Origin: an uncultured Chthonomonadaceae bacterium | Lineage (GTDB): Bacteria; Armatimonadota; Fimbriimonadia; Fimbriimonadales; Fimbriimonadaceae | Reading direction: 5' to 3' | Assembly (NCBI GenBank): GCA_946479035.1 | Contig: CAMLDW010000061.1 | Span: 1 to 9,262 of the forward strand | DNA length: 9,262 bases | In this document: piece by piece, positions 1,640 through 5,252 of the stretch | Layout: the number at the start of each line of letters is the position of its first letter | Position numbering within the stretch: position 1 is the stretch's first letter | Program-made: the position numbers and the translations under genes | Notes under the pieces: generated by a model | Seen by the model: the letters and a program-made list of their open reading frames with translations, nothing else | What the model was told of the DNA's origin: nothing | The model's database searches: none

Positions 1640-2524
1640 CTAAGTAAGTTCGCCGACGAGCACCGTCCGCGCGGGGCCGGAGAGGGCGACGCGCGCGCCG
1701 CGGACCTCGACCCCGACGTAGCCCCCTCGCAGGGAGGCTTGGTAGCCGACGACCGACTCCTTTCCAAGCCGCGCCGCCCAATAGGGCCCGAGCGCGCAGT
1801 GGGCGGAGCCGGTCACCGGGTCCTCGGCGATGCCGCTCTGCGGGGCGAAGAAGCGCGAGACGAAGTCGGGGGGCGATGAGTGCGCGGACCCCCACCCTAA
1901 CCCTCCCCCAAGGGGGAGGGAATCTTCGGGAACGAGGTTGGTCTGCGCTGTGACGATCACGCCGCGCTTGCCAAGGCGCTCGATCGCGCCCATGTCGGGC
2001 TTGAGGGAAAGGAGCTGCTCGGCGGATTCGAGCACGAAGAACCAGTCCATGCGGTTGGCGCCGTACCAGACGGGCTCGGCCCCCAGCGCGGCCGACACGG
2101 GAAACGGGTCCGCCTCCTCTGGCGCTTCGGAAGGAAAGTCCATCTCGATGCCGCCGTCCACCGCGCGGCACGCGAGCTCCCCGCTTTTCGTTATGAATCG
2201 CACGATGTCTCCGGCCCCTCCCCCTTGGGGGAGGTCAGGGAGGGGGTGCCCGATGCCCGCTGACTGGAGTTCCTTGAATAAGACGTGCGCGCTCGCCAGA
2301 GTCGCGTGGCCGCACAGGTCCACCTCGAGGGCGGGAGTGAACCAGCGCAGGCGCAAACGGTCCCCTTCGGGCCAGAAGAAAGCGGTCTCGGCCTGGTTCA
2401 TCTCGGCCGCCACGCGCTGCATCCACGCCTCGTCCGCCGGCGCCTCGAGCGGGCATACGCCGGCGGGGTTGCCGGTGAAGGGCGCGTGCGCGAAGGCGTC
2501 GACGAGGTAGATCGGCTGCGGCAT
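1640..2524 (-). CDS. PhzF-family isomerase/epimerase with two repeat-encoded inserts
   Basis: This is a PhzF/YddE-type protein (294 aa), a diaminopimelate-epimerase fold whose members isomerise or epimerise small substrates; PhzF itself acts in phenazine synthesis. N-terminal half: VDAFAHAPFTGNPAGVC (8-24), then Glu46 in AETAFF (general acid/base position in PhzF), FTPALEVDLCGHAT (62-75). C-terminal half: DFVSRFFAP (220-228) and EDPVTGSAHC with Asp235. The catalytic set looks intact. Two stretches absent from usual relatives, about residues 87-106 and 195-218, are encoded by copies of a GC palindrome (LPDLPQGGGAGD and SLPLGGGLGWG); both fall between conserved blocks and keep the frame. Without them the protein would be roughly 250 residues, close to family size. 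No phenazine genes are nearby, so the substrate is unknown. The ATG is preceded by TAGTAC and 9 nt rather than a ribosome binding site, suggesting a leaderless mRNA. Confidence 0.92.
   Translation of the reverse strand: MPQPIYLVDAFAHAPFTGNPAGVCPLEAPADEAWMQRVAAEMNQAETAFFWPEGDRLRLRWFTPALEVDLCGHATLASAHVLFKELQSAGIGHPLPDLPQGGGAGDIVRFITKSGELACRAVDGGIEMDFPSEAPEEADPFPVSAALGAEPVWYGANRMDWFFVLESAEQLLSLKPDMGAIERLGKRGVIVTAQTNLVPEDSLPLGGGLGWGSAHSSPPDFVSRFFAPQSGIAEDPVTGSAHCALGPYWAARLGKESVVGYQASLRGGYVGVEVRGARVALSGPARTVLVGELT
1888..1920 (+). repeat. GC-palindromic repeat, copy 1, inside the PhzF gene
   Basis: The core is CCCTCCCCC (1901-1909), AA, GGGGGAGGG (1912-1920), a perfect 9-bp inverted repeat. An asymmetric left arm ACCCCCACCCTAA (1888-1900) gives it a direction. 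Read on the minus strand it is translated in frame as part of PhzF (SLPLGGGLGWG). It aligns over 33 bases with the reverse complement of 2215-2247, with a few substitutions and a one-base gap. Confidence 0.8.
2215..2247 (-). repeat. GC-palindromic repeat, copy 2, inside the PhzF gene
   Basis: CCTCCCCC (2217-2224), TT, GGGGGAGG (2227-2234) form an 8-bp inverted repeat. On the minus strand the directional arm reads ACCCCCTCCCTGACC, matching the arm of copy 1. This copy therefore lies in the opposite orientation and is translated on its other strand, as HPLPDLPQGGGAG. It sits between the conserved HVLFKEL and VRFITKSGEL blocks of PhzF. Confidence 0.8.
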
Positions 2525-2677: not shown

Positions 2678-2727
2678 GGGTTCTCCTGAATTGCCCCCAT
2701 CAAGGGGGAGGGGAACGGAGCGCGGCA
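2678..2727 (+). repeat. Dispersed repeat, copy 3 (intergenic)
   Basis: This stretch aligns with 5197-5252. Both begin GGG(T/C)TCTCCT, carry a C-run, and end with a TCAAGGGGG(G)AGGGG block followed by AACGG(A/C)GCGCGGCA. The last 28-29 bases differ by one substitution and one G. The left arm is reduced here (CCCCC at 2694-2698), so the hairpin is only about 5 bp. The two copies share far more than the palindrome, which points to dispersal of one element rather than independent GC-rich hairpins. Confidence 0.7.
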
Positions 2728-5196: not shown

Positions 5197-5252
5197 GGGC
5201 TCTCCTCAGATCTCCCCTCCCCCTCAAGGGGGGAGGGGAACGGCGCGCGGCA
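5197..5252 (+). repeat. Dispersed GC-palindromic repeat, copy 4
   Basis: This is the best-formed palindrome of the set: CCCCTCCCCC (5214-5223) pairs with GGGGGAGGGG (5229-5238) around TCAAG. The tail AACGGCGCGCGGCA matches copy 3 at 2714-2727 except for one base. It begins 15 nt after the M48 stop codon. It could fold in the 3' UTR and protect or end the transcript, although no T-run follows. Confidence 0.7.

Follow-up and report, generated by a model that had tools for sequence, protein, structure and literature searches.

Short repeats with triplex-motif symmetry are translated in frame within loops of a PhzF-like enzyme and within other conserved enzymes of related genomes

The 9,262 nt of DNA analysed here (the window, meaning the whole stretch) belong to a metagenome contig and contain, on the minus strand at 1640..2524, a gene for a PhzF-like isomerase/epimerase of 294 amino acids, an intact ORF in which two short inserts are translated. 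The protein matches Pfam PF02567 (E=7.5e-54); scores above the PF02567 / TIGR00654 cut-offs and a PhzF fold place it in the PhzF family, and its nearest proteins are from Armatimonadota/Fimbriimonadaceae. The catalytic residues, which we take to be those familiar from PhzF enzymes, are intact. The nearest solved structure, by alignment as well as by best fold match of the model, is 1s7j, which in the alignment contains neither insert. Other genes of the window code for CheD, HDOD, HD-domain, M48 peptidase and class II aminoacyl-tRNA synthetase proteins. Since the PhzF protein is present on two contigs and the genome DNA of a relative has the same kind of insert, an assembly artefact behind the inserts is unlikely.

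The window has exactly two occurrences of the 18-bp core CCTCCCCCNNGGGGGAGG (1902-1919 and 2217-2234), a number reached in none of 200 dinucleotide shuffles, and a repeat search of the window returned 1902-1920 and 2216-2234 as an inverted pair of 19 nt with 100% identity. With the directional arm included, the copies extend over 1888..1921 and 2215..2248 and are inverted relative to each other. Thus the sequence-only reading of this DNA, which had proposed two inverted repeat copies in frame inside one PhzF gene, is confirmed by the exact cores and the intact ORF. The copy at 1888..1921 (site 2), in plus orientation, is read along its G strand, the minus strand being the coding one, as SLPLGGGLGWGS (residues 202-213), and on the plus strand is composed of a third strand (1889-1897), loop TAA (1898-1900), C arm (1901-1909), loop AA (1910-1911) and G arm (1912-1920). 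The copy at 2215..2248 (site 1), in minus orientation, is read along its C strand, here also by way of the coding minus strand, as HPLPDLPQGGGA (residues 93-104), and on the plus strand runs from the C arm (2216-2224) through loop TT (2225-2226), G arm (2227-2234) and loop TCA (2235-2237) to the third strand (2238-2246).

Site 1 is 29 residues long in the window protein versus 15 in 76 of the 97 parsed homologues, and site 2 is 27 residues long versus 8-9 in 59 of the 97, or 15 in relatives with almost no insert, P0002 and P0010 among them. The lengths come from a simple text rule tried on 120 homologues, 23 of which remained unparsed, and a few of the 97 parsed rows are visibly misread (for example P0005 at site 1; P0067, P0073 and P0095 at site 2). 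From the comparison with parsed homologues and near insert-free relatives, the net gains are estimated at about 14 residues at site 1 and about 12 at site 2, smaller than the 20-24 residues that had been claimed. Both inserts fall in loops of the AlphaFold model (mean pLDDT 87.3, 32-row alignment): site 1 links a helix to a strand, the pLDDT block means over residues 91-110 being 72 and 77, and site 2, where the pLDDT drops below 50 at residues 206-214, connects two strands. An RNA hairpin function for the window copies was considered and set aside, none of the four folds tried being significantly better than shuffles (best z -1.26).

Alignment of 29 collected copies, from which five deviating ones were excluded and 24 kept for the profile, gave a consensus of about 35 nt, ACCCCCTCCCTAACCCTCCCCCAAGGGGGAGGGGA. 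Its G strand presents a C arm, a 2-nt loop TT, a G arm, a loop TTA and a third G arm that mirrors the preceding one. The palindrome and the directional arm noticed earlier are indeed shared, but more than the palindrome is common to the copies, namely C arm, G arm and mirror third strand. The window copies are parsed as CCCTCCCCC-TT-GGGGGAGGG-TTA-GGGTGGGGG and CCCTCCCCC-TT-GGGGGAGG-TCA-GGGAGGGGG. In the copy at 1888 the third strand mirrors the G arm at eight of nine positions (T for A), and in the copy at 2215 the mirror is complete across the 8-nt G arm, the second loop being TCA. In its nucleotide order the element is symmetrical in the manner of G/C-rich class II intrastrand triplex motifs. 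This class is defined by three arms of 6-15 nt (C arm, G arm and mirror G arm, one mismatch being allowed) separated by loops of 1-6 nt (PMC4666352); the window copies agree with this ITxF definition. The strict TMECO pattern, CCCTCNCCC N3-6 GGGNGAGGG N3 GGGNGAGGG, does not describe them, because the first loop has 2 nt and the third strand is devoid of the GAGGG end. Two degenerate intergenic copies lie in plus orientation elsewhere in the window: that at 2694..2727 has a longer 3' tail (CAAGGGGGAGGGGAACGG.GCGCGGCA) and is 85% identical to 5219-5252 in the repeat search, and that at 5213..5252 combines the hairpin CCCCTCCCCCTCAAGGGGGGAGGGG with a 3' tail common to both. The tail AACGG.GCGCGGCA, common to 2694-2727 and 5219-5252, suggests a second, related repeat family.

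Among the genomes compared, those with the PhzF proteins closest to that of the window are G031 (73% identity) and G001 (69%). Both loops are empty in the G031 protein (P0002). In the G001 protein, site 2 is occupied by a copy that runs the other way and lies closer to the next strand than the copy of the window. Because of the opposite orientation and the different insertion point, the site 2 inserts of the window and of G001 are, from their sequences, of independent origin, and among the PhzF insert comparisons this contrast is the only one shown to be so. Absence of the inserts from close homologues, as the repeat interpretation had led one to expect, was observed in several, P0002 among them, and fails for two relatives of the same protein clade: at site 1, P0004 reads HPLPDVPQGGGA, and at site 2, P0021 reads SLPLGGGC, each nearly the peptide of the window at the same place. 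Neither of the two carries both peptides, and their place in the clade does not mark them as homologues from distant genera. Since these two carry near-identical peptides at the places of the window inserts, the latter, or at least parts of them, may have been inherited from an older ancestor. Judged by length, 14 of 28 PhzF relatives are filled at site 1, at site 2 or at both. On a tree of the 28 built without the loops, parsimony yields seven state changes, and the well-supported branches alone force at least two for the insert-free state; the base of the tree is poorly resolved, so that the exact number of gains is not countable. Repeat-like peptides are present in several relatives (PLTPDPSPPEGR, PSPKGEG, SLPLGGGC), with that of G001 alone seen as DNA. 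Other repeat-like peptides, FGSSEVRRFG and AREDARPPG, occupy the same loops (P0007, P0014, P0015, P0019; L045) and apparently stem from different repeat families; some longer inserts, of the FGSSEVR type, are probably other repeats.

The further copies that had been predicted, some of them inside genes, are present in the related genomes, where they were counted. The core pattern has 11 copies in G001 and 17 in G031, the reversed control giving none in either. At least one match exists in 41 of 85 genomes of the family, many of these being other hairpins, and the exact pattern including the third strand is confined to two of 113 genomes of the order, G001 (three copies) and G031 (five). Two pattern-rich genomes, G053 and G078, were set aside, the matches listed having other loops and appearing by eye as plain hairpins or other repeats. 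A profile search over 800 kb of G031 detected 26 places at 17 bits or more; 19 of them, five in genes, score above 21 bits, and the seven below that value are uncertain one by one because the reversed-sequence control of the profile gave six hits at 18-21 bits (and three at 15-18). Six of the 26 places lie in called genes, two copies each in FucI, LeuS and TrmFO, the weak copy a of FucI being borne out by alignment to a solved homologue, and ArgS of G031 has two copies as well. If landings are independent, the simulated chance that six in-gene copies would share no more than three genes is 5 in a million. The copy pairs of LeuS and TrmFO may each be single events since each pair lies within one insert; in FucI the two inserts are separated by conserved sequence.

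Seven of the 28 strict copies lie inside genes by our own judgement, or nine of 27 by a home-made automatic gene caller with the PhzF contig left out. Set against coding densities of 0.83-0.88, the 7/28 strict copies and the 6/26 profile places of G031 in genes mean that in-gene copies are strongly depleted, about 85% being expected if insertion were without consequence. On either strand of the consensus, one of the three frames contains a stop, which is TAA for the C strand and TAG for the G strand. Copies read in the stop frame are altered: the stop has become TAT in PhzF and AAG in AlaS of G001, the loops of the ArgS, FucI a and TrmFO a copies are changed, and FucI b has lost one base. The altered stops are consistent with a frame filter rather than proof of it, because an intact stop hides a copy from an ORF-based count. 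From the idea of a filter for coding tolerance put forward earlier, the signs of frame filtering are retained and the stop-free frames on which it was based are not, there being one stop frame per strand. By register, 16 in-gene inserts divide into ten PSP, five LP and one PPP (chi-square p=0.02), in a list made by hand in which tandem and orthologous copies were counted once, terminal hits were excluded and rows are not fully independent; the preference is suggestive only, because the list pools orientations and includes the sister element of G006 described below.

In-frame copies in G031 and G001 are found in FucI, LeuS, TrmFO, ArgS, AlaS and PhzF, the first five carriers being identified by NCBIfam and Pfam as L-fucose isomerase, leucyl-tRNA synthetase, TrmFO, arginyl- and alanyl-tRNA synthetases. 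Solved homologues are devoid of the inserts of LeuS (query 469-509 versus chain 377-379), TrmFO (119-170 versus 121-127), FucI (10+13 aa) and AlaS (9 aa), and the ArgS copies fall in a stretch that does not align to the solved homologue (257-365 versus 174-194). Hits set aside in G001 and G031 were those at the N-termini of a GH2 ORF (L118) and of HPPD and AhpC-like ORFs (L119), and two (both L113) in ORFs that belong to no family, one of 256 aa and one of 639 aa, the latter hit being C-terminal. The LeuS loop is shorter and free of repeat-coded peptides in G006, G009, G036 and G030. In G001 (L228/L230), an unrelated insert of about 148 aa occupies the LeuS loop that has two triplex-motif copies in G031. 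The TrmFO insert is absent in G009, G036 and G006, and G001 and G031 differ in the insert they have there. The peptide PSPLGEG(K/R)GGG is common to AlaS of G001 and G031 and absent in G006, G009, G036 and G030; its DNA diverges between the two genomes at 3/33 nt versus 100/360 nt in the flanks (p=0.02), which may reflect conversion among copies, repeated insertion or constraint. Open-frame gaps between matched parts of AlaS, about 300 nt in G031 (L244/L246) and about 145 nt in G030 (L245/L247), suggest further inserts. A sister element, CCTCCCCC-GTTAC-GGGGGAGG..., is seen in G006 (L198-L216), a genome with 68 pattern matches. Among the 47 of these that were examined, 18 are in called ORFs and seven of the 18 are internal, in SufD, homoserine dehydrogenase (three), acyl-CoA dehydrogenase (two) and an AIRS-family protein, the copies being translated in tandem in homoserine dehydrogenase (three) and acyl-CoA dehydrogenase (two); the other 11 were set aside, ten as N-terminal and outside the family domain and one as part of a 241-aa ORF (L198).

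The element combines features of several known systems. In the accessible text of Holder et al. 2015 (PMC4666352), triplex motifs (TM, TMECO, PIT) are dispersed DNA structures linked to genome instability and with no function assigned. They have the same order of C arm, loop, G arm, 3-nt loop and mirror G arm and a similar length (34-37 nt in Table 1), the second loop of type A TMECO being the TTA of our consensus; like the element described here they occur in many dispersed copies and in inverted pairs, and in that text are not found with mobile elements. Differences are the 2-nt first loop and the third strand GGGAGGGGG, which depart from the strict TMECO consensus, the hosts, since TMECO were counted in proteobacterial genomes whereas the present element is Armatimonadota-like, and the location, TMECO being always intergenic in E. 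coli MG1655 whereas copies here also lie in frame in conserved genes (PMC4666352). Rickettsia palindromic elements, the comparison drawn by the sequence-only reading, are similarly inserted in frame in unrelated conserved genes, as far as they are described in PMC2229807, PMC10969869 and PMC3733652, and such insertion is what we found. The likeness therefore stands as regards a translated in-frame insert in an unrelated GC-rich genome; it does not extend to the anatomy, which is that of an intrastrand triplex motif. The host is another one, and the classical units are given as 105-146 or about 150 bp versus about 35 bp here (PMC2229807, PMC10969869, PMC3733652), although RPE-4 and RPE-6 are grouped with short CGTC REPs (PMC3733652). 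As for GTAG/CGTC REPs, the portion available of a 2013 report (PMC3733652) describes several bacteria whose conserved genes contain short palindromic REPs in frame, frequently as doubled inserts and with tRNA synthetases among the targets, as here, and two Xanthomonas species with different REPs at about the same place in recB. The present element differs from them in its triplex-type third strand, in the absence of a GTAG or CGTC tag from either strand of the consensus (by eye) and in its absence from the surroundings of the PF01797 matches examined. REPs read in frame have thus been published before from outside Rickettsia (PMC3733652). Among the hits listed by a search that covered mainly the openly accessible literature, none described translated triplex motifs inside genes, and none described such repeats from Armatimonadota. 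What is new is the triplex class, the phylum Armatimonadota and the repeated use of the same loops.

Taking into account the dispersal of the copies, their depletion in genes, the frames used and the loops occupied, all of which fit it, we consider it probable that non-autonomous repeats spread broadly and that, within genes, only those in open frames and tolerant loops survive. In this model the two PhzF sites would represent separate insertions of a repeat of about 35 bp, ACCCCCTCCCTAACCCTCCCCCAAGGGGGAGGGGA, copied perhaps by replication or repair templating at a fold-back, or perhaps through the action in trans of some enzyme. The majority of copies within genes would be purged, and the survivors would be those in loops with the frame kept, read as flexible Pro/Ser/Gly/Glu peptides. 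Once occupied, a loop would become a neutral landing place for more copies, which would explain pairs and recurrence, and a benefit to the enzyme is neither needed nor shown. A wider version of the model, in which certain loops of housekeeping enzymes, once tolerant, are standing landing places filled, doubled and refilled over the history of a bacterial family by different short repeats, those of triplex type among them, whichever way these are oriented, so that the repeat pool supplies flexible linkers (PSPxGEG, LPQGGG) filtered by frame, is put forward as a tentative extension.

The copies might instead be ordinary REP/REPINs mobilised by a genome-encoded RAYT transposase, those in genes being accidents. 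The palindromic unit of about 35 bp, its inverted pairs and clusters, and the presence of PF01797 matches in 52 of 85 family genomes (nine in G031, three in G001) are what such an origin would produce. However, none of the 12 PF01797 loci of G031 and G001 (about 3 kb each) has an element copy, the best score within about 1.5 kb of a match being 9 bits; at least three of them (L174, L175, L182) are by eye flanked by other repeats, and the consensus bears neither tag, all of which makes a RAYT origin rather unlikely, although a transposase encoded elsewhere might act on the copies in trans. One of the PF01797 matches (L181) is possibly spurious; it falls within a long ORF for another protein. 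Alongside the RAYT-type genes at L174, L175 and L182 of G031, distinct palindromic repeats of their own are seen by eye. If the peptides were selected as useful linkers, interaction surfaces or regulatory parts, both retention and frame preference would be explained, and filling of the same loops in many PhzF relatives, the AlaS insert at one place in G001 and G031 with its low divergence, and ten of 16 inserts in one of three register classes would be in line with it. Yet the enzymes are unrelated, the peptides differ, only some relatives have them and the PhzF model has low confidence there, and a tolerance filter accounts for the same facts, so that selection is improbable. That the loops are just length-variable and Gly/Pro-rich, the repeat likeness being a compositional accident, could be argued from the widely varying loop lengths of the clade and from the GC-rich background; against it, two cores appeared in none of 200 shuffles, the reversed pattern is absent from G001 and G031, and near-identical 35-bp units occur in unrelated genes. 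For this element the probability of chance likeness is negligible and we regard it as refuted; for some other PhzF inserts, seen only as protein, it may still apply.

Triplex repeats translated in essential enzymes are phase-marked insertions, which can show how such repeats spread, how often they hit genes and what a protein loop tolerates, and the availability of filled and empty orthologues makes the origin and persistence of RPE-like inserts testable outside an obligate parasite. As a minor observation on the extent of the unit, the box AAAGGACTTT occurs four times in 800 kb of G031 versus 1.5 expected, each time shortly upstream of a C-rich stretch (three by script test, the fourth by eye). 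The peptide GGKDFG of two PhzF inserts (P0004, P0017) resembles the translated AAAGGACTTT box, and the element may have a long form.
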